DNA from: Minisyncoccota bacterium
Lineage (GTDB): Bacteria; Patescibacteriota; Minisyncoccia; Phycocordibacterales; UBA9973
Length of the DNA stretch: 34,231 nucleotides
Reading direction: 5' to 3'
Assembly: GCA_017992215.1 (NCBI GenBank)
Contig: JAGOOZ010000003.1
Location: 1-34,231, forward strand
Below the pieces are notes generated by a model. The model saw nothing but the letters and a program-made list of their open reading frames with translations, did no database searches and was not told the DNA's origin. Shown piece after piece: positions 24,650-34,231 of the stretch; the first letter of the stretch is position 1; each line of letters opens with the position of its first letter. Both the position numbers and the translations under genes were made by a program.

Positions 24650-26872
24650 GTGAAAAACGTATCTTCATTTATTCTCTCGCTCATACTCATCGCGACTGTT
24701 TTCGCGCCTGTTGCGTTTAATCTAGGGACTGCACAATTTAGCACTCGTACTGTATACGCCCTCGACGGAAACGGGGGAGGTGATGCCAACCTTGATAGAT
24801 TCAACACCGCCCTTTCAGAAGAAAGACAAAATCAAGAACCGACCCCTCCAACACAACTCCCATCATGTGGCTTTGGTTCTATCTCTGGTTGTATCGCTCA
24901 GGTTATCTACTATCTTTTATTTGTTCCAACATCATACCTTTTTGCTCTTACTGGTATGTTTTTTGATTTTACTTTTGCCTACTCTATCAATGACGCTTCG
25001 TATCGAGTACCTTTTATTACCCAAGGATGGGCACTTCTCCGAGATGTCGTTAATATGTTTTTCATCTTTGTTCTTCTCTTTGTTGCTTTTCAGACAATTG
25101 TCGGGACGCATGGCGTAAAAACAAAAGAAACGATTAAAAACGTCATTGTGATTGGTATTCTTATCAACTTTAGCCTTTTTGCAACACAAATTATCGTTGA
25201 TACCTCAAATATTCTTGCTCGGGTATTTTACAATGATGATGCAATTACCATTACCAAAGGTGGGGCAAACGGTGTCACCGAAGCAACAATAGAAAAAGGA
25301 GCGTCAGGAGAAATACCACTTTCAGCAGCTCTCGTAAATGGTATCAACCCTCAAAACCTTATCCTTAACGCAGATAAAGTTTCTGATATTAAAACAGCGG
25401 GGAATGCAAATACCGCAACAGGTGGGGGTGCTGAATCTCTTAGTGCGGGAACATTTATACTCGTAACGATTCTTGCGATTATTATCAACATTGTTGGTAT
25501 GATCACATTTCTCTCTGTCGGACTTATTTTTATCTCTCGTGTTATTGGACTTTGGTTCGTGATGATTTTTGCTCCACTTGCTTTCTTTAGTTACACAGTA
25601 CCCTCAATGAGAAATAAACCAATTATCGGGTGGACACAGTGGTGGGAAGAACTCTTTAACCTTTCTGTCCTTGCTCCTATTTTCATCTTCTTCCTCTATC
25701 TTATTTTGCGATTTGTAAAAGAAGGGTTTAACTTTATCGACATCGAGAACCTCACTGGTATCGAATGGGTAATGGCTATCATGATTCCTTTTATATTTAT
25801 CATGATATTACTTCTCACCGCAAAAAAACTCGCAACAGAATACTCTGGCACAATAGGAAAAGCTGTTACGGGTGGTATCTCAGCACTTGGTGGTGTCGCC
25901 ATGGTGGCAGCGACCGGTGGTATTGCAGCAGCGGGCCGTGGTGTCGGTGGTGTTATGGCTCGTGCGTCACGAGGGGAGACACTCTCTCAGCGTTTTGCTG
26001 ACCCAGCAAAACGAAGCACAATGAGTATTCCACAAAAAGTCTTTGGTGGAATCGGAGCAGGACTTGGAGCAAATAAGATTTTTGGCAAAACAACAACCAC
26101 AGGTGGTAAGACAACAGTGACAAGCGGTGTTGGTAAAATTCTCAATGAAAAACAAAAGGGTGTTGAGAAAACAGACCACGCTCGTCACACCATCGATGAC
26201 GCAAAGAAAAAAGCTGGATTTGGAGATGTTTCATGGTCACGACTCTCTGCTCCTCAGATGGACAAAGTTCTTGCTGAATTTAAGAAAGGCAAAAAAGAAG
26301 ACCTTACAAAAGACATAAGGGAAGGCAGGGTGGCTGGTGTTGAAAGTGAGGTTGATTACAAAAAGAAACACTACCTAGCTGAAGAATCAAAATACAGGAC
26401 AGCATCAGGTGTAACAGGATCACTCTCAAAAAGAGACGAAGCTATTATCGAAAAGAATCTTTCAAACAATTATTCAAAAGATGTTATTTCTCCAAACATT
26501 GATATCCAAGTTCAAGCAAAATTCGATGCAGAGAAACAAGAGGCAGAAAAAACCGTTTCTCCAATCGACAGAGCAATCTCTCAAGCCAACACGGGAAGTT
26601 GGGATCCTCGAAATCTCTCATCTCTCACACAAGACAAAAGAGAAAGTTTTGCAACACGAGCACTTACTGGATTTACTTCGTTCTCAAGTGGACAAATTAG
26701 GGGTGCAATTAAAAACATTGGCTTTGACATGGGTACTGCACAAAAAGATTTTATTAAAGAATTAACAACATCCCTTGCTGAAGCACTCAAGCAAATACAG
26801 ATTGATGTAAAAGTAAAAGGAGGAGAAAAGAAAAAAGGAGGCGATGATCATGGAGGTGGAGCACATCACTAA
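24650..26872 (+). CDS. VirB6/TrbL-like polytopic membrane protein
   Basis: 740 aa, GTG start. A signal peptide (about 1-37, V-Y-A) is followed by at least seven hydrophobic segments within about 80-410 (for example 80-110, 131-152, 163-190, 268-310, 335-360, 380-400). A long basic, Gly-rich soluble C-terminal region ends in G-G-D-D-H-G-G-G-A-H-H. This layout matches VirB6/TrbL-type inner-membrane channel proteins of type IV secretion systems, and the PrgI and VirB4 genes lie just downstream. The alternative ATG at 24648 is in another frame and closes at once, so GTG is chosen. Family membership is by architecture, not by a motif. Confidence 0.8.
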   Translation: MKNVSSFILSLILIATVFAPVAFNLGTAQFSTRTVYALDGNGGGDANLDRFNTALSEERQNQEPTPPTQLPSCGFGSISGCIAQVIYYLLFVPTSYLFALTGMFFDFTFAYSINDASYRVPFITQGWALLRDVVNMFFIFVLLFVAFQTIVGTHGVKTKETIKNVIVIGILINFSLFATQIIVDTSNILARVFYNDDAITITKGGANGVTEATIEKGASGEIPLSAALVNGINPQNLILNADKVSDIKTAGNANTATGGGAESLSAGTFILVTILAIIINIVGMITFLSVGLIFISRVIGLWFVMIFAPLAFFSYTVPSMRNKPIIGWTQWWEELFNLSVLAPIFIFFLYLILRFVKEGFNFIDIENLTGIEWVMAIMIPFIFIMILLLTAKKLATEYSGTIGKAVTGGISALGGVAMVAATGGIAAAGRGVGGVMARASRGETLSQRFADPAKRSTMSIPQKVFGGIGAGLGANKIFGKTTTTGGKTTVTSGVGKILNEKQKGVEKTDHARHTIDDAKKKAGFGDVSWSRLSAPQMDKVLAEFKKGKKEDLTKDIREGRVAGVESEVDYKKKHYLAEESKYRTASGVTGSLSKRDEAIIEKNLSNNYSKDVISPNIDIQVQAKFDAEKQEAEKTVSPIDRAISQANTGSWDPRNLSSLTQDKRESFATRALTGFTSFSSGQIRGAIKNIGFDMGTAQKDFIKELTTSLAEALKQIQIDVKVKGGEKKKGGDDHGGGAHH

Positions 26873-26880
26873 TACACATT

Positions 26881-27876
26881 ATGGACAAAACACAATTACA
26901 ACAACTCATACAAGATAGATACAAAGCACTTTCGCCAAATGCGCAGCAGGTATTTAGTTCTATGGAGTGGGCAACTACACTCACTGAGATTGCACAAAAA
27001 TACGCTCTCAACGAGGCACAAATAGTACACCTTGGAACAGAAACAACCCTTGTGCTTCTTGGTATTATTTCTATTACTGAATATAGAACAACACTTGAAA
27101 AAGAACTCGCTCGACCAAAAGATATTTCAGAAAAAATACTTGCTGAGATAGAAAGTCGAATCACAAATCCTGTAGCACAAGACCTCCTTACTGCACACAA
27201 TGAATACACCGCAGGACCTCGTGAGACTACAAATACTCCCACCGAGCAACTCTCTCTCAGTGAAGCAACAACACAAGCACTCAAAGAATCAGACTACGGG
27301 GCAAAACTTGCTCGCATCGGACAAGAACAAGTAGTATCTCTTGCTGATATGAAAAAAATAGAAGATGCAACTATACTCTACCTCAAGGGAACTATGCCCT
27401 CACGCATTTTTGAACAAACGATAGCCGATATTCTCCCCCCAGAAAAAGCCCGTCTTGTTCTTCGTAGTATTAACGATATGATTCTCGCTCCGATGAGAAC
27501 ATACATACAGACACACACAACTCCGTCTATCCCCGTACCACCATATAAAACACAATCAAGTGTTCTTGCTACTGCTGGAATTGAAATGGTTGAATCAATA
27601 GATAAAGATACATCACAGGGAGGATTCGACAACGACAAGGGATCATTCTCAGAATCAGGCATTGCTGTTGTTGAAAAAAAAGAACAAGAAGATACTGAGC
27701 ATCTCTATGCAAGTAACGCAGTCCGAAAAAATGTCCTCGACGGAATAGAAAACCCACAAAAAACACGGTCTCTTGCTCAAGAGAAAATGGAGGGCATCAT
27801 CACTACAACAAAAAAAGACAGCGATTACTCAATACCAAAAATGACACCCGATGTGTATCGAGAACCAATCGGTTAA
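26881..27876 (+). CDS. Cytoplasmic protein with two tandem helical domains
   Basis: 331 aa, no signal peptide or membrane helix. Two helical regions align roughly with each other, about 20-100 and 130-210. Both carry a hydrophobic helix ending in L-x-x-I, a polar turn, then T-E/A-T-T/I-L-x-L-x-G, and a helix ending in P-x-x-A. They look like an internal duplication. The last 110 residues are acidic, Lys/Ser/Gln-rich and probably unfolded, ending in a Pro-rich P-D-V-Y-R-E-P-I-G. It starts 8 bp after the VirB6-like gene, so it is cotranscribed. Not recognised. It may dock the cytoplasmic face of the channel, which is inference. Confidence 0.75.
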   Translation: MDKTQLQQLIQDRYKALSPNAQQVFSSMEWATTLTEIAQKYALNEAQIVHLGTETTLVLLGIISITEYRTTLEKELARPKDISEKILAEIESRITNPVAQDLLTAHNEYTAGPRETTNTPTEQLSLSEATTQALKESDYGAKLARIGQEQVVSLADMKKIEDATILYLKGTMPSRIFEQTIADILPPEKARLVLRSINDMILAPMRTYIQTHTTPSIPVPPYKTQSSVLATAGIEMVESIDKDTSQGGFDNDKGSFSESGIAVVEKKEQEDTEHLYASNAVRKNVLDGIENPQKTRSLAQEKMEGIITTTKKDSDYSIPKMTPDVYREPIG

Positions 27877-27898: not shown

Positions 27899-28318
27899 AT
27901 GCAATTCAAGGTTCCACAATTTATCGATATCGAAGATAAACTGTTTGGCCCACTTACGTTTCGCCAATTTGCATACCTTGCAGGTGGGGGAGGTATGGTT
28001 TTTGTTATCTACAAACTACTTCCACTTTGGATAGGTATTTTTCTTATGCTCCCTATTGTTATTCTTGTACTAGCACTCGCATTCTACAAGATAAACAATC
28101 AGCCTTTTATCTATTATCTTCAAGCAAGTATTACGTATGCAATCACAAACAAACTCTATGTATGGAAACAGCGACTCGTAAAACCAAGCCTCAAAAAAGA
28201 AGAGCCCGAAAAAGAACAGACAATCAATCTCCCGCGAATGTCTGGAAATAAACTCTCAGACCTTGCATGGAGTCTCGACGTAGAAACAAAAGACACCTCA
28301 AACACAAATATTCAATAA
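27899..28318 (+). CDS. prgI: PrgI family protein (VirB3-like)
   Basis: 139 aa. The PrgI opening is clear: M-x-F-x-V-P-Q-F-I-D-I-E-D-K-L-F-G-P-L-T. Then R-Q-F leads into two adjacent transmembrane helices (about 24-42 and 44-63). A basic linker, A-S-I-T-Y-A-I-T-N-K-L-Y-V-W-K-Q-R, and a Lys/Glu tail follow. PrgI occurs next to VirB4-type ATPases in Gram-positive conjugation systems and takes the place of VirB3. Here the VirB4 N-terminal-like and VirB4 genes follow. It would sit in the cytoplasmic membrane as part of the VirB3/VirB4 base of the machine. Confidence 0.92.
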   Translation: MQFKVPQFIDIEDKLFGPLTFRQFAYLAGGGGMVFVIYKLLPLWIGIFLMLPIVILVLALAFYKINNQPFIYYLQASITYAITNKLYVWKQRLVKPSLKKEEPEKEQTINLPRMSGNKLSDLAWSLDVETKDTSNTNIQ

Positions 28319-28343: not shown

Positions 28344-28988
28344 ATGGCCTTGAACGCTCGTGCCGCACAAGAATTTGTTTCAATCAAAGAAGTTCGAGAT
28401 GGAGTCATCATACTCAAAGATGGTGGTCTTCGTGCGGTACTTATCGCATCATCAATAAACCTGTCCCTCAAATCCTCAGATGAACAAATGGCAATTATTA
28501 ATCAATTCCAGAATTTCTTGAATGGACTTGATTTCCCAACACAAATCGTCATGCAATCACGAAGACATGATATCAGACCATACCTCATGATGCTTGAAGA
28601 CAGGATAAAAGAACAAACAGAACCCTTGATTAAAATCCAAACCCGAGAATACATCAACTTCATACAAACATTTACAGACCAAGTAAATATTATGACGAAA
28701 AGTTTTTTTGTTGTTGTTCCATATAGCCCTGCTCTCATACGTTCAAGTGGAAGTATCATTGAAACACTTCTCGATAGGGGGCAAAAAAAAGCATCCTCAT
28801 CAAAACAAGGTGAGGATACGGTTGCTTTTGAAGAAAAGAGATCTCAGCTTGACCAGCGAATAAATGTCATCACAAGTGGCCTCGGCGGGTTGGGGATTCG
28901 TAGCTCACAATTAAACACCGAAGAAGTTGTTGAACTTTTTTATAAAACATTTAACCCAGGTGATATCAGCCAGGGGATTCAATTATGA
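28344..28988 (+). CDS. VirB4/TraC N-terminal-domain-like protein
   Basis: 214 aa, soluble. It opens with A-Q-E-F-V-S-I-K-E-V-R-D-G-V-I-I-L-K-D-G-G-L-R, a fold typical of the first domain of TraC/VirB4 ATPases. Helical segments and a loop rich in S, K and G follow. It has no Walker motifs. Its TGA stop overlaps the ATG of the VirB4 gene by 4 bp (28985-28988), so translation is coupled and the products probably bind. The arrangement suggests that the N-terminal module of VirB4 is encoded as a separate subunit here. The module assignment is by pattern and needs a profile search; the overlap is seen directly. Confidence 0.75.
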   Translation: MALNARAAQEFVSIKEVRDGVIILKDGGLRAVLIASSINLSLKSSDEQMAIINQFQNFLNGLDFPTQIVMQSRRHDIRPYLMMLEDRIKEQTEPLIKIQTREYINFIQTFTDQVNIMTKSFFVVVPYSPALIRSSGSIIETLLDRGQKKASSSKQGEDTVAFEEKRSQLDQRINVITSGLGGLGIRSSQLNTEEVVELFYKTFNPGDISQGIQL

Positions 28989-30814
28989 GTATTTTTTCAT
29001 CATTCTTCAAAAAGAGCACCTCAGAAAAAGACACAAAGACGTCTGGTGTTTTACCTGTTCTTCCAACTGAAATATACAAAGCAGCAACACTTGAACTCCA
29101 AGATATTATTGCACCGTCTGCGCTTCAAATCACACCAAAATCACTTAACCTCGGAGATAAAATAACTCGAACCTTTTTTGTTATCTCATACCCTCGATAT
29201 CTTACTGATAATTGGTTCTCTCCTATTATCAATCTCGATAAAGTGTTTGATGTTTCAATTTTTATTCATCCAATAGAAACAGCAGATATCCTTCGTTCAT
29301 TTCAAAAAAAGGTTGCTGAAGTACAAAGTCAGATTTCAATTCGTGAATCAAAAGGTCTTGTTCGTGACCCAATGCTTGATACTGCATACAGAGACCTTGA
29401 GAATCTTCGAGATAGCCTCATGCAAGCACAAGAAAAGATGTTTAATGTTGGCCTGTACATCACAGTCTATGCAGATAATGACAGCGAGATTTTCAAAGTA
29501 GAAAGTGAGATAAAATCACTTCTTGAATCAAAGCTTGTATACCTCAAACCAGCTCTTTTCCAGCAAGATGAAGCATTTAAAAGTGTCATTCCACTTGGAA
29601 CAGACACTCTTGGTATTCACCAAAAACTCAACACTGAACCACTTTCAAGTCTCTTTCCATTTGTTTCATTTGACCTTACTTCAGACAAGGGGGTTCTCTA
29701 TGGAGTAAACAGACATAACTCAAGTTTAATTATGTTTGACCGTTTTTCTCTTCCAAACTACAATTCAATCACTTTTGCAACATCAGGTGCTGGTAAATCA
29801 TACGCAACAAAGCTCGAAGTGATTCGCACGCTTATGTTTGATACAGAAGTGATAGTGATTGACCCTGAACGAGAATATGAATACTTGGCAGAGGCAATGG
29901 GTGGCCGATATTTCAACATTGCTCTTTCTTCTGATCACCACATCAATCCTTTTGACCTCCCAATTCCAAGTGCCGATGAGACAGGTGCTGATGTTCTCCG
30001 GGCAAATACCATCAACCTTGTGGGGCTTTTCCGTATTATGCTTGGAGGATTAACACCTGAAGAGGATTCTATTATTGACCGAGCTATTACTGAAACCTAC
30101 GCAATGAAAGATATTACTGCTGATTCAAACTTTGCCAACATTGAGCCACCACTTCTCACTGACTTTGAAATGGTACTTGCCGGCATGGAGGGAAGTGAGT
30201 CAATTATTCAACGTCTCGCAAAATACACCCGTGGATCATGGGCATCATTCCTCAATCAACCTTCTAATGTCGATATCAATCGTAAGTTTGTTGTGTTTTC
30301 TGTTCGAGACATGGAAGACGAACTCAAGCCTGTCGCTATGTATATAGTGACACACTACATCTGGAACGCAGTCCGAAAAAACATCAAAAAACGCCTTCTT
30401 GTTGTCGATGAAGCGTGGTGGATGATGAAATCAGACGATACTGCGTCATTCCTTTATTCAATTGCAAAGCGAGGGCGAAAATATTACCTTGGCCTTGCGA
30501 CTATCACACAAGACGTCGGAGACTTTATGAAAAGCACCTATGGTATACCGATTGTGACCAACTCATCTATTCAACTCCTCCTCAAGCAATCCCCATCAAC
30601 TGTTGATACACTCCAAAAAACCTTTAATCTCACAGACGAAGAAAAATACCTTCTTCTTGAGGCAAACGTCGGGGAGGGAATATTCTTTGTGGGGCTTAAG
30701 CACGTCGCGATTAAAACAGTTGCTTCTTATACAGAAGACCAGATTATTACTTCTGACCCCTCACAGATCCTCGCAATTAAAAAAGCGAGAGAAGAGATCA
30801 CCACCAACCAGTAA
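28985..30814 (+). CDS. virB4: VirB4-family type IV secretion ATPase
   Basis: 609 aa. Residues 1-235 are a CagE/TraC-like N-terminal region. The RecA-type motor follows: Walker A T-S-G-A-G-K-S-Y at 266-273 and Walker B L-L-V-V-D-E-A-W-W at 471-479. An I-D-P-E-R-E-Y-E segment lies at 292-299. The R-G-R-K-Y-Y at 496-501 and T-Q-D at 508-510 are also standard for VirB4. It powers assembly of the pilus and secretion channel and probably acts with PrgI and the separate upstream N-terminal protein. A 4-bp overlap couples it to that gene. At 609 aa it is shorter than the typical 750-800, in keeping with the split. Confidence 0.95.
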   Translation: MSIFSSFFKKSTSEKDTKTSGVLPVLPTEIYKAATLELQDIIAPSALQITPKSLNLGDKITRTFFVISYPRYLTDNWFSPIINLDKVFDVSIFIHPIETADILRSFQKKVAEVQSQISIRESKGLVRDPMLDTAYRDLENLRDSLMQAQEKMFNVGLYITVYADNDSEIFKVESEIKSLLESKLVYLKPALFQQDEAFKSVIPLGTDTLGIHQKLNTEPLSSLFPFVSFDLTSDKGVLYGVNRHNSSLIMFDRFSLPNYNSITFATSGAGKSYATKLEVIRTLMFDTEVIVIDPEREYEYLAEAMGGRYFNIALSSDHHINPFDLPIPSADETGADVLRANTINLVGLFRIMLGGLTPEEDSIIDRAITETYAMKDITADSNFANIEPPLLTDFEMVLAGMEGSESIIQRLAKYTRGSWASFLNQPSNVDINRKFVVFSVRDMEDELKPVAMYIVTHYIWNAVRKNIKKRLLVVDEAWWMMKSDDTASFLYSIAKRGRKYYLGLATITQDVGDFMKSTYGIPIVTNSSIQLLLKQSPSTVDTLQKTFNLTDEEKYLLLEANVGEGIFFVGLKHVAIKTVASYTEDQIITSDPSQILAIKKAREEITTNQ

Positions 30815-30854: not shown

Positions 30855-31844
30855 GTGAGTATTCTCCGTACAAAAATAGCATTCCCTGTGATTCTAGGAA
30901 TCATTTGTTTTTGTATTTCATCATATACACATGCTGCTATTGATATACAAGAAGATGATATTATCGTACAAGTATCACCATCTGCTCCACAATCATACCA
31001 AGACGTCACAATCACCCTCTCTAGTTATGCGACAAATCTCAACACTGCACAAATAGAATGGACAAAGAGTGGCATTGTTGTACTTACTGGATTTGGTAAA
31101 ACATCATATACATTTAAAACAGACGGCCCCGATATACCCTCAGATATAGGTATACAAATTGTGATTAACGGAATACCAGAACCTATCACCAAACAACTCG
31201 CCATTACACCTTCTGACGTCGAACTCCTCTGGGAGGCTGTTGATAGTTATACTCCACCATTTTACAAAGGAAAAGCACTTCCAACTCAAGAATCCACCGT
31301 ACGAGTAACAGCGATTCCAAGTACCAAACTCGGACAGGCTCGACTTGGTAATATTTCATACACCTGGAAGAAAAATGATACGACCCAATCAAGTGCATCT
31401 GGATATAAAAAAAATGTCTTTTCGTTTAAAAACGACATTATTGAAACACAAGAAAAAATATCAGTCGACGTAACCTCAATTGACAATACATACACCGCAA
31501 CAAAATCAATACGAATTCCTATTGTTCAACCAGAACTTTATTTTTATCAAAAAAATGAAGAGACGGGAATTCGCTATTCAGAAATCCTTCCATTTGAGAC
31601 ACCGGTCCTGAGTGATGAAATCACCATTGTTGCAGAACCTTATTTTCTTAATCTAAAAAACAAAACAACTACCTATACATACCAGTGGAAAATCAACGGG
31701 GAACGAATAGAAACACCACTCTACAAAAAAGAATTAACTATCAGACCCACAGAAAAGGGTGGGTATGCAACTATTTCTGTTATTATTGATGGAGTATCGT
31801 CACTCTACCAAAAAATACAGGGAACAATCAGACTAACGCTATAA
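30855..31844 (+). CDS. Exported Ig-like protein of the secretion cluster
   Basis: 329 aa, GTG start. A signal peptide (about 1-27, ending T-H-A-A) is followed by a mature region made of beta-strand-rich units. Repeated patterns such as S-x-V-x-V-S-P-x-x-P and Y-T-W-K-K-N suggest three Ig-like domains of about 90 residues. There is no other membrane helix and no cysteine outside the signal. It is 40 bp after virB4 and 4 bp before the pilin-VanY gene, so it is part of the cluster. It may coat or extend the pilus or bind the partner surface, which is inference. An alternative in-frame ATG further inside would remove the signal peptide, so GTG is preferred. Confidence 0.8.
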   Translation: MSILRTKIAFPVILGIICFCISSYTHAAIDIQEDDIIVQVSPSAPQSYQDVTITLSSYATNLNTAQIEWTKSGIVVLTGFGKTSYTFKTDGPDIPSDIGIQIVINGIPEPITKQLAITPSDVELLWEAVDSYTPPFYKGKALPTQESTVRVTAIPSTKLGQARLGNISYTWKKNDTTQSSASGYKKNVFSFKNDIIETQEKISVDVTSIDNTYTATKSIRIPIVQPELYFYQKNEETGIRYSEILPFETPVLSDEITIVAEPYFLNLKNKTTTYTYQWKINGERIETPLYKKELTIRPTEKGGYATISVIIDGVSSLYQKIQGTIRLTL

Positions 31845-31848
31845 ATAT

Positions 31849-33249
31849 ATGAAAAAAATACTTCTTACACTTTCATTCATAATAGTTCTCTTGTCTCCTC
31901 TTGGCATAAATACACCTACTGAGGCGGCGACAGAAGCATGTAAGGTTCTTTCTGGAAAATGGAGCCCTTCAGGGGATATGGACGACAACTGGTTCAAAGA
32001 AGGACGAACAACAGCAAACATGGTTATTAAAACCATTGGATGCGTAAACACAACACTTAACTTTAGTGTTTTTGAATCAGACTTGTGCGGCATTCTTGAA
32101 TGCGATGATGAACTTACAGGGCTCTACAGAAAGCCATTTATTGTTCCGTCTGATAATTTTACAATCAGTATCAACCTAGGAGAAGAAGAGTGTGAAACGA
32201 TTGGATATGATTGTCATCTTTTTTTCTACATACGAGACAATGCAAATGAACTCATTTTTAATTCATACAAAAACCCGAATGATCTTTTTTATGAATGTGA
32301 TGGTATTTGTGACACAAACCCATCTTTTATTCAAATAACACCAAATGGAAATACGAGTACGACCATTGACGCAGATGCGGTAAACCAAAGCGTGAGCAAG
32401 GACACCTACACACTCCTTGCTCCAATTGGGGGTCTTGAGTGTATTGAAAATGGGGAGGGAACCTCGAATCCAAACTGCACCAAGGGAAATGTGGGAACAT
32501 ATATCAATATTTTTTTTAAAATAGCAATTGGCCTTGCAGGAGCACTTGCGGTAATAATGATAGTCATTCACTCTGTCTCATATATGGGAGATGAGTCTGT
32601 CTTTGGTAAAACAGAAGCAAAAAGTAGTATTCTCTCTGCAATTGGTGGGCTTCTCCTCGCACTTGGAGCATGGGCACTTCTCAACACCATCGACCCCGCC
32701 CTGACCGGATCACGTGGAATTCAAATAGATGAAGTGGTTGTAGAACTTGATGAAGAACCTATCATCAAAGACGACCCCAATATAACAATACAAAAGGGAG
32801 CTATTGCTGGATGCCCTGAGGGTATTTCTAAAATCTCAACAAAGGGTGGTATCCTTTATGCGTGTAATAGTATTGCACCAAGAATTAAAGACATGATCAA
32901 TAAAGCATGGGCAGAGGGGATACAAATATCTGGTGGGGGATTTAGAACACGAGCAAAACAAGAAGCACTTCGCGCAAAAAACTGCGGAGGAAGCATGAAT
33001 ATATACAACAAAAAAGCTGTTTGCAACCCGCAAACAGCACCTCCGGGAACATCAATGCACGAAAGTGGTCTGGCTTTTGACCTCGCTTGTGAAGGAAAAC
33101 TCATAAACATAGGAACAGGAAAGAAAAATCGCTTCCAGATAAACACAAGTACACGAAAATGCTTCGATTGGCTCAGTAAAAACGCAAGTAATTTTGGACT
33201 AAAAAATCTTAAGGCAGAAAACTGGCACTGGTCAACGACAGGGGATTAA
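31849..33249 (+). CDS. T4SS pilin (VirB2-like) fused to a VanY-type peptidoglycan carboxypeptidase
   Basis: 466 aa. A signal peptide (about 1-27) precedes a cysteine-rich exported domain (about 28-180, cysteines at 31, 65, 80, 85, 115, 122, 150, 154). The T4SS_pilin/VirB2-like unit follows at 185-286. It has L-L-A-P-I-G-G-L, two helices (216-242, 258-280), the K-T-E-A-K-S-S-I-L-S-A-I loop between them and the A-L-L-N-T-I-D-P end. Residues 318-466 form a VanY (D-Ala-D-Ala carboxypeptidase) domain: S-G-G-G-F-R-T at 361-367 and Zn ligands H404 and D411 in S-M-H-E-S-G-L-A-F-D. The third ligand is H460 in E-N-W-H-W, with catalytic E457. The enzyme would trim peptidoglycan. It starts 4 bp after the Ig-like gene. 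Confidence 0.9.
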   Translation: MKKILLTLSFIIVLLSPLGINTPTEAATEACKVLSGKWSPSGDMDDNWFKEGRTTANMVIKTIGCVNTTLNFSVFESDLCGILECDDELTGLYRKPFIVPSDNFTISINLGEEECETIGYDCHLFFYIRDNANELIFNSYKNPNDLFYECDGICDTNPSFIQITPNGNTSTTIDADAVNQSVSKDTYTLLAPIGGLECIENGEGTSNPNCTKGNVGTYINIFFKIAIGLAGALAVIMIVIHSVSYMGDESVFGKTEAKSSILSAIGGLLLALGAWALLNTIDPALTGSRGIQIDEVVVELDEEPIIKDDPNITIQKGAIAGCPEGISKISTKGGILYACNSIAPRIKDMINKAWAEGIQISGGGFRTRAKQEALRAKNCGGSMNIYNKKAVCNPQTAPPGTSMHESGLAFDLACEGKLINIGTGKKNRFQINTSTRKCFDWLSKNASNFGLKNLKAENWHWSTTGD

Positions 33250-33270: not shown

Positions 33271-34231
33271 ATGCAACGAAAAACACTCGTCATATTTATA
33301 ATCGTTTTTAGTCTTCTCGGAATAGGTATTTTTTTGATGTCTCGTCTTGTAACAACAAAAAAAGTAGCGGGTCCACAGGATACAGACACCTCAACCTATA
33401 GACAGTTCGAAAGCCTCTCGGGCGAACAAGAAGGTACACTCTCTGGTATTATCAACCGAACAATAGACTCTCTTACGGGAACACAAACAACAGAACCTTC
33501 TTTTTCACAAATAACAGATTTTCAGATAGCAGGTATGACATATCTCGAAGACACAAGACAAATCAAAACAGAAGATCCAACAGCAGAACAATACGAAATC
33601 GTTCCTTCACTTAGGTATGTAGAAAGAGCAACGGGATATATTCATCAGATATATCTTGATACAAAAAAACAGGGTGTTATTTCAAACGCATCTATCCCTG
33701 GCGTACAAGAAGTACTTTTTGGGAACAATGGGCAAACTGTTATGTATCGATATATCGATACCGAAGACAGGACAACAATAAACAGCTTTATTGCAACACT
33801 TGGTGGAGAAAAGGGTGAGTTTCTCCCTGATAATATTATCTCTGTTAATTTTTCACCAGAAAATAACAGTATCTTTTATATTGTAAAAGATACTGTTGGT
33901 GTTCGTGGAATTATAAAATCAATCACAGAAACAAAAACAAGTCAGCTTTGGACATCTCCATTTTCAGAGTGGACTTCAGAATGGCCAACACAAGGAACAA
34001 TTTTTCTTACAACAAAACCATCATGGAGAGTAGAGGGAAGCCTCTGGGGTCTCAATACAAAAACAGGTGTTCTTACAAAAATCCTTTCTGGTATCCCTGG
34101 GCTTACCACCCACACAAACAGAGATGCATCATATCTTATCTATAATACAACCACAACAAATGGCCCTCGTCTTAGTGTCTACTCAATGGCAAAAAACACA
34201 ACACTCGACCTTGGGGTGTATGGACTTCCTG
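33271..34231 (+). CDS. Membrane-anchored protein, 3' end cut by window edge
   Basis: 320 codons are visible and open to the right edge. M-Q-R-K-T is followed by one transmembrane helix (about 5-25), then an acidic, Thr/Ser/Gln-rich linker (30-75). A repetitive beta-rich region follows with strands ending in aromatic residues and patterns such as V-N-F-S-P-E-N-N-S-I-F-Y-I and A-S-Y-L-I-Y-N, like blades of a propeller. No cysteine or enzyme motif is seen. It starts 21 bp after the pilin-VanY gene. Such anchored propeller-like proteins accompany CPR secretion clusters; the role is unknown and the propeller call is by eye. Confidence 0.75.
   Translation, partial: MQRKTLVIFIIVFSLLGIGIFLMSRLVTTKKVAGPQDTDTSTYRQFESLSGEQEGTLSGIINRTIDSLTGTQTTEPSFSQITDFQIAGMTYLEDTRQIKTEDPTAEQYEIVPSLRYVERATGYIHQIYLDTKKQGVISNASIPGVQEVLFGNNGQTVMYRYIDTEDRTTINSFIATLGGEKGEFLPDNIISVNFSPENNSIFYIVKDTVGVRGIIKSITETKTSQLWTSPFSEWTSEWPTQGTIFLTTKPSWRVEGSLWGLNTKTGVLTKILSGIPGLTTHTNRDASYLIYNTTTTNGPRLSVYSMAKNTTLDLGVYGLP

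Follow-up and report, generated by a model that had tools for sequence, protein, structure and literature searches.

A VirB2-like pilin fused to a VanY-type peptidase in a Patescibacteria type IV secretion locus, and exchange of its C-terminal wall enzyme among relatives

The gene at positions 31849–33249 of this window (the whole 34,231-nucleotide stretch that was analysed) raises the question of why a type IV secretion system (T4SS) pilin should carry a cell wall enzyme. VirB2 pilins are normally small, processed proteins, and the 466-aa product of this gene lies well outside the small-pilin range of about 70–150 aa. The window makes up the entire contig G000:C8, which belongs to a draft genome of 533 kb and 92.7% completeness; its relatives are Nomurabacteria/Paceibacterota within Patescibacteria, and the source bacterium is a tiny and probably host-dependent member of this group.

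The gene was found to be one uninterrupted frame with 0 internal stops that encodes, on the + strand as do all features given below, a probable signal peptide (aa 1–26; 31849–31926) with a hydrophobic segment at aa 4–22, a cysteine-containing ectodomain (aa 27–205; 31927–32463), a VirB2-like T4SS_pilin unit forming a two-helix hairpin (aa 206–288; 32464–32712), a flexible linker (aa 289–316; 32713–32796) and a VanY/M15B zinc peptidase domain (Pfam aa 341–462; 32869–33234). Residues 1–205 contain 9 cysteines, and the ectodomain is beta-rich in the AlphaFold2 model, with strands at 32–140 predicted at low to middling confidence, and poorly conserved among relatives (median identity 27% within the window's genus). 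The PF18895 (T4SS_pilin) match at aa 214–281 was just below the cut-off of 26.6 bits in the protein scan (E 1.2e-5, 25.7 bits) and above it in the whole-genome scan (29.6 bits), while AlphaFold2 placed helices at 215–247 and 251–281 with pLDDT values of about 90–97. The VanY match (E 3.8e-11) retained zinc ligands H404, D411 and H460 together with catalytic E457, and this domain was modelled with pLDDT mostly between 84 and 95, the poorly predicted stretch being the low-pLDDT linker (approximately 287–320). The preliminary description of a single gene that joins a signal peptide, a cysteine-rich ectodomain, a pilin unit and VanY is therefore upheld by the frame, by Pfam and by the structure prediction that it had proposed, which returned a confident hairpin and VanY domain on either side of a flexible linker. 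Sequence searches found no solved-structure relative of the pilin unit and no match to it at E 0.01 in phage and plasmid collections, so that a phage or plasmid origin of this unit was dropped. Among phage families, the VanY domain matched a PHROG whose annotation is tape measure protein (E 2.6e-8).

The G+C content of the gene is even along its length and similar to that of the contig. A frameshift or assembly join within the gene, which the preliminary description had raised for residues 286–318, was rejected on the basis of the single frame and of relatives fused in one frame. Six further one-frame VanY-pilin fusions were identified (L092, L101, L199, L201, L208 and L211), thus homologues with both domains exist. 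An assembly or annotation artefact would draw on the metagenomic origin of the contigs and on the contig end 982 bases 3' of the gene; it is contradicted by these six relatives and by the many independent assemblies that have a fused gene in the same operon position, and can be regarded as highly improbable.

Structural comparison of the VanY model gave a VIA-align Z of 11.4 to VanYB (5hnm; 125 residues, rmsd 3.7), 10.8 to BaLdcB and 10.0 to Ply500, indicating a LAS fold and agreeing, together with the motif, with the earlier claim of a complete domain. Profile comparison with solved structures identified VanYB-type D,D-carboxypeptidases and LdcB L,D-carboxypeptidases and, more weakly, the Ply500 L-Ala-D-Glu peptidase. 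By motif and modelled fold the enzyme is clearly assigned to the M15-type peptidase class, and the bond that it would cut could be D,D, L,D or L-Ala-D-Glu because the VanYB, LdcB and Ply500 types all match nearly as well. The domain shares its fold and zinc site with VanY/LdcB/VanXY and Ply500-type (M15) peptidases but differs from them in being tethered to a pilin. Of the earlier label of a pilin joined to a carboxypeptidase, the fusion is thus real, but 'carboxypeptidase' is too specific a name for the enzyme, whose place is taken by unrelated wall-enzyme families in relatives.

Mapping of the surrounding operon identified a PrgI/VirB3-like protein (27899–28318; Pfam E 5.2e-12) and a VirB4-type T4SS ATPase (28985–30814; P-loop_TraG E 4.2e-25) in the same operon as the fusion gene, indicating that the pilin is encoded with other T4SS parts. 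Upstream of these are a polytopic membrane protein (24650–26872), termed VirB6/TrbL-like by position and hydrophobicity only as it has no Pfam match, which holds the same position in relatives, and a gene with no assigned function (26881–27876) that also precedes PrgI in many relatives. A conserved 214-aa gene (28344–28988) overlaps the VirB4 start by 4 bases and lies ahead of VirB4 in nearly all relatives, perhaps representing an N-terminal portion that was split from VirB4. A secreted protein with a weak Ig-like match (30855–31844; Ig_3 E 0.0067, below cut-off) lies between VirB4 and the fusion and is retained there by synteny, and directly 3' of the fusion is a membrane-anchored protein (33271–34230) that is conserved in relatives and truncated here by the contig end. 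Across the whole genome a profile search found VanY in single copy, no SLT protein above cut-off and no NlpC/P60 protein, this search having covered VanY, SLT and NlpC/P60 only. A weak SLT-like match (L172; G000:C20:7225-7323; E 0.017, below cut-off) within a 195-aa frame was the only other SLT candidate.

The preliminary description had also proposed a search for stand-alone pilins elsewhere in the genome, and these are present: contig C17 carries five further T4SS_pilin genes in tandem (L008; G000:C17:3098-4908), four small and stand-alone and one longer-tailed, and the small ones could be the bulk subunits. The 344-aa member of this tandem has a long C-terminal tail with a repeated motif and no recognised wall enzyme. 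Profiles built for such array pilins and for the pilins that occupy the position of the fusion gene in the VirB4 operon (hereafter the slot) separated the two types without error in held-out tests (91/91 and 65/65), and a tail of at least 60 aa was lacking in 91 of 94 pilin ORFs from array-type loci; the array set was selected by top Pfam score, a choice biased towards the array type. Therefore the slot pilin is, by its sequence profile, a dedicated subfamily separable from array pilins, and a minor subunit, with array pilins as bulk subunits, would fit such a dedicated type, the stoichiometry being inferred. Alternatively, the protein could be a precursor that is cleaved into a secreted enzyme and an ordinary small pilin, a possibility for which the flexible linker and the small, processed state usual for VirB2 pilins can be cited. 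The slot subfamily is however distinct from the small array pilins and no cleavage site was identified in the fusion protein, making a cleaved precursor unlikely.

Comparison with relatives of the same genus, family and order, whose VirB4 sequences were 65–89% identical to that of the window across the order, showed that gene order is kept and that the pilin gene stays in its slot while the C-terminal part of its product varies; the conserved neighbourhood that the preliminary description had suggested as a check is thus confirmed. The C-terminal part is an SLT domain in L042, NlpC/P60 in L043 and of other types in L044–L060, and overall the slot C-termini comprised SLT, NlpC/P60, Amidase_2, YkuD, M15, other LAS-type domains, regions without a recognised domain, or no tail. 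Of 80 named loci sampled by way of VirB4, 62 had a pilin gene in this slot, and most of the loci without it end soon after VirB4. Among 58 slot genes that were classified, 31 were of wall-enzyme type by Pfam or motif, 19 had no recognised enzyme and 8 proteins were tail-less. Pfam names in 73 slot proteins, where family counts can overlap on one protein, were NLPC_P60 (7), SLT (3), VanY (3) and Amidase_5 (2), with Amidase_2, Peptidase_M15_4, YkuD, SLT_2 and SLT_3 at one each, and the possibility that fusion is limited to VanY was rejected given these other families in the same slot. Nearly all of these relatives are metagenome assemblies.

Two further groups were defined by motif. The first (LAS1; 15 aligned sequences) has an invariant H, D and H, and its best structural matches were to Hedgehog, LdcB and a zinc DD-peptidase at only Z 4–7; the second (LAS2) is assigned as an enzyme by motif only. 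Profile comparison of VanY with LAS1 gave a short motif match only, and that of LAS1 with LAS2 gave nothing firm. Other classes of the phylum showed the same pattern of a slot pilin with varied enzymes. The SLT domain of one relative matches lytic tail fibre proteins of phages, and three pilin fusions (L202, L209 and L046) share an unassigned C-terminal domain bearing the motif NPGN.

On the tree of the whole order the enzyme labels required 46 changes compared with 51.8 when shuffled, with 0 of 200 shuffles as low, and close relatives therefore do sometimes share an enzyme type; for single enzyme classes on this tree, clustering was not beyond chance. Outside the window's genus, VirB4 was 97.7% identical between a LAS1 locus (L145) and a LAS2 locus (L059). 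A few species occur in both the order-level and the genus-level set, L092 and L206 for instance being one contig.

The genus set comprised 24 genomes, 21 with VirB4, which was 86–92% identical to that of the window, and at least five Pfam enzyme families occurred in the slot. The slot genes that were read encoded VanY (6), SLT (3), LAS1 (3, one truncated by the contig end), NlpC/P60 (1), YkuD (1) and Peptidase_M15_4 (1), in addition to two tails judged lysozyme-like by eye and two with no assigned type. With the SLT gene of L205 labelled separately, the resulting 9 labels required 12 changes on the VirB4 tree of 19 species, and a VanY locus (L208) and a LAS1 locus (L207) were 95.1% identical in VirB4. 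Distances for 17 species showed that the pilin unit follows VirB4 (r 0.55; 0 of 2000 permutations), as do the downstream gene (r 0.59) and the Ig-like gene (r 0.42), with a weak correlation for the ectodomain (r 0.19). For the same 17 species no correlation with VirB4 distances was found for the C-terminal domain (r -0.07, p 0.77) or for shared enzyme class (r 0.05, p 0.29), the class test being the cleaner of the two because identity between unrelated tails is noise. Within the genus the pilin unit tracks VirB4, therefore exchange concerns the C-terminal part, and replacement of the whole gene as its cause was rejected. As read from these sequence comparisons, the pilin unit and operon are inherited vertically with VirB4 while the C-terminal domain is exchanged.

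The position of the switch can be seen at three loci (L094, L102 and L059) with two slot-type genes of identical or nearly identical pilin DNA but different tails. The L094 copies share 758 identical bases and diverge 20 bases past the pilin unit into an NlpC/P60 tail in one and a tail judged lysozyme-like by eye in the other, and the L102 copies share 402 identical bases ahead of a tail judged lysozyme-like by eye and an Amidase_2 tail. At L059 the pilin units differ by 1 base in 252, with the second copy inverted and located at the opposite operon end, and the pilin units of L153 are 99% identical in protein. In these relatives the DNA identity of tandem copies stops about 20–40 bp past the pilin unit, a pattern resembling recombination about a constant pilin core, in draft genomes where assembly joins at repeats may contribute.

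These observations suggest a contact device with interchangeable wall-cutting heads, and we give a probability of roughly 0.6 to the reading that the fusion serves the Patescibacteria T4SS as a dedicated minor pilin with an exchangeable wall-active enzyme. Both ends of the protein would be placed outside the membrane by its signal peptide and hairpin, as is the case for VirB2-type hairpins prior to assembly, so that the enzyme would be turned towards the wall. The pilin unit would dock the protein into or beside the T4SS or its pilus, probably in few copies because an enzyme on every subunit is hard to pack, and the small array pilins would provide the bulk subunits. The C-terminal domain is predicted to cut or trim peptidoglycan where the machine meets the wall, as a VanY-type zinc peptidase here and, in sister species, as a lytic transglycosylase, an NlpC/P60 or amidase domain or an L,D-transpeptidase fold. 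Against this minor-pilin reading are the slot tails with no recognised enzyme and the tail-less proteins, which indicate that an enzyme is not always needed, the possible inclusion of assembly joins among tandem copies from metagenome assemblies, and the VanY family itself, which includes carboxypeptidases that trim walls and do not open them.

This last point also weighs against an own-wall assembly enzyme, that is, a VirB1 equivalent on a pilin-type membrane anchor that opens the producer's wall only, in which case any wall enzyme would suffice and types would drift neutrally, since a carboxypeptidase by itself does not open a wall. Such an enzyme is favoured by the genome having no SLT above cut-off and no NlpC/P60, and by passages of PMC12857230 according to which it is usually VirB1-like enzymes that open the wall for a T4SS, with a membrane anchor in Gram-positive systems. 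It is further favoured by another lineage in which VanY ends a 980–1140-residue protein directly after VirB4, lacking a pilin unit, at four of four loci (L047, L173, L174 and L175). A wall peptidase is thus tied to the Patescibacteria T4SS by two routes, one by pilin fusion and one by a non-pilin gene after VirB4, which supports a need for one there and, as this second route fits an ordinary assembly enzyme, counts against the minor-pilin reading. Exchange at many branches, even at 95–98% VirB4 identity, is however faster than expected of a housekeeping part, and bare tails and those without a recognised enzyme occur, leaving an own-wall function as a possible but distinctly less probable explanation.

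Alternatively, the enzyme-derived domains may mainly bind the peptidoglycan of a partner, with exchange setting the partner range. Tails without a recognised enzyme and cysteine-rich tails would fit an adhesin of this kind, and passages of PMC12857230 record a proposal that VirB1 homologues lacking activity serve as adhesins in some Gram-positive systems, but the VanY, LAS1 and NlpC/P60 groups retain their catalytic residues, and we consider this function doubtful. Within the preferred minor-pilin reading, judged from the exchange pattern by itself, the partner's wall appears the somewhat better candidate target, with the producer's own wall a substantial second. A more specific proposal, which we hold tentatively and at slightly below even odds, is that of a polymorphic pilin-borne arsenal, whereby the C-terminal wall enzyme would be exchanged by recombination between copies with an identical pilin core, fitting the contact device to the wall of the current host.

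Pilins and pilin arrays in Patescibacteria are described in passages of PMC12102498 and PMC10633639, which also report that most T4SSs of this phylum lack a relaxase and that the system was essential in the one cultured species tested. The fusion has in common with these T4SS_pilin (PF18895) proteins the domain, the phylum, the link to virB4 and prgI and the two-helix hairpin; it differs from them in its 466-aa length, in its enzyme and ectodomain and in belonging to a separable subfamily. Passages found in the main texts of these two papers make no mention of enzymes fused to pilins, and no pilin-wall enzyme fusion is described in those of PMC12102498, PMC12857230, PMC10633639, PMC10936435, PMC11452946 and PMC11665869 (main texts). 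A wider search of mostly open-access literature found no other description. PF18895 and the lysozyme-like PF18896 are neighbouring Pfam numbers, and curators may have noticed such fusions. A fast-changing wall enzyme on the pilin at the end of the VirB4 operon points to wall contact and opening. Enzyme type is moreover a countable trait, readable from sequence, and lends itself to comparison with the wall chemistry of hosts over many uncultured lineages.

In comparison with known systems, VirB1-type hydrolases (VirB1, PrgK, TraG and Orf14) likewise have a wall-active domain encoded with the T4SS, and their SLT and NlpC-like types recur in the relatives. The window's locus encodes such a domain (VanY; SLT, NlpC/P60 and Amidase_2 in relatives) with predicted activity, but on a pilin unit, of a type that varies between sister species, and not as a stand-alone SLT or CHAP homologue of VirB1. 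It is consequently not filed as VirB1 but may work like it: of the earlier suggestion that the protein replaces VirB1, the wall-active domain on a T4SS gene and the genome lacking SLT above cut-off and NlpC/P60 stand, and the role itself is a matter of fit. Phage tail-associated lysins are wall enzymes built into a contact device, as here, with a pilin in place of the tail protein. In the evolved VgrG effectors of the T6SS (PMC6899460) a structural component of a contact machine likewise bears an effector-type domain at its C-terminus, but the machine is a different one and there is no homology, leaving a functional analogy only. The quick change of chemistry on a retained docking unit resembles both these evolved spikes (PMC6899460) and phage tail lysins, and the locus may represent the T4SS equivalent of the spikes with which T6SS and phage tails carry enzymes, the best reading by this analogy being a protein that is VirB1-like in effect and arranged like the 'evolved' spikes of T6SS.
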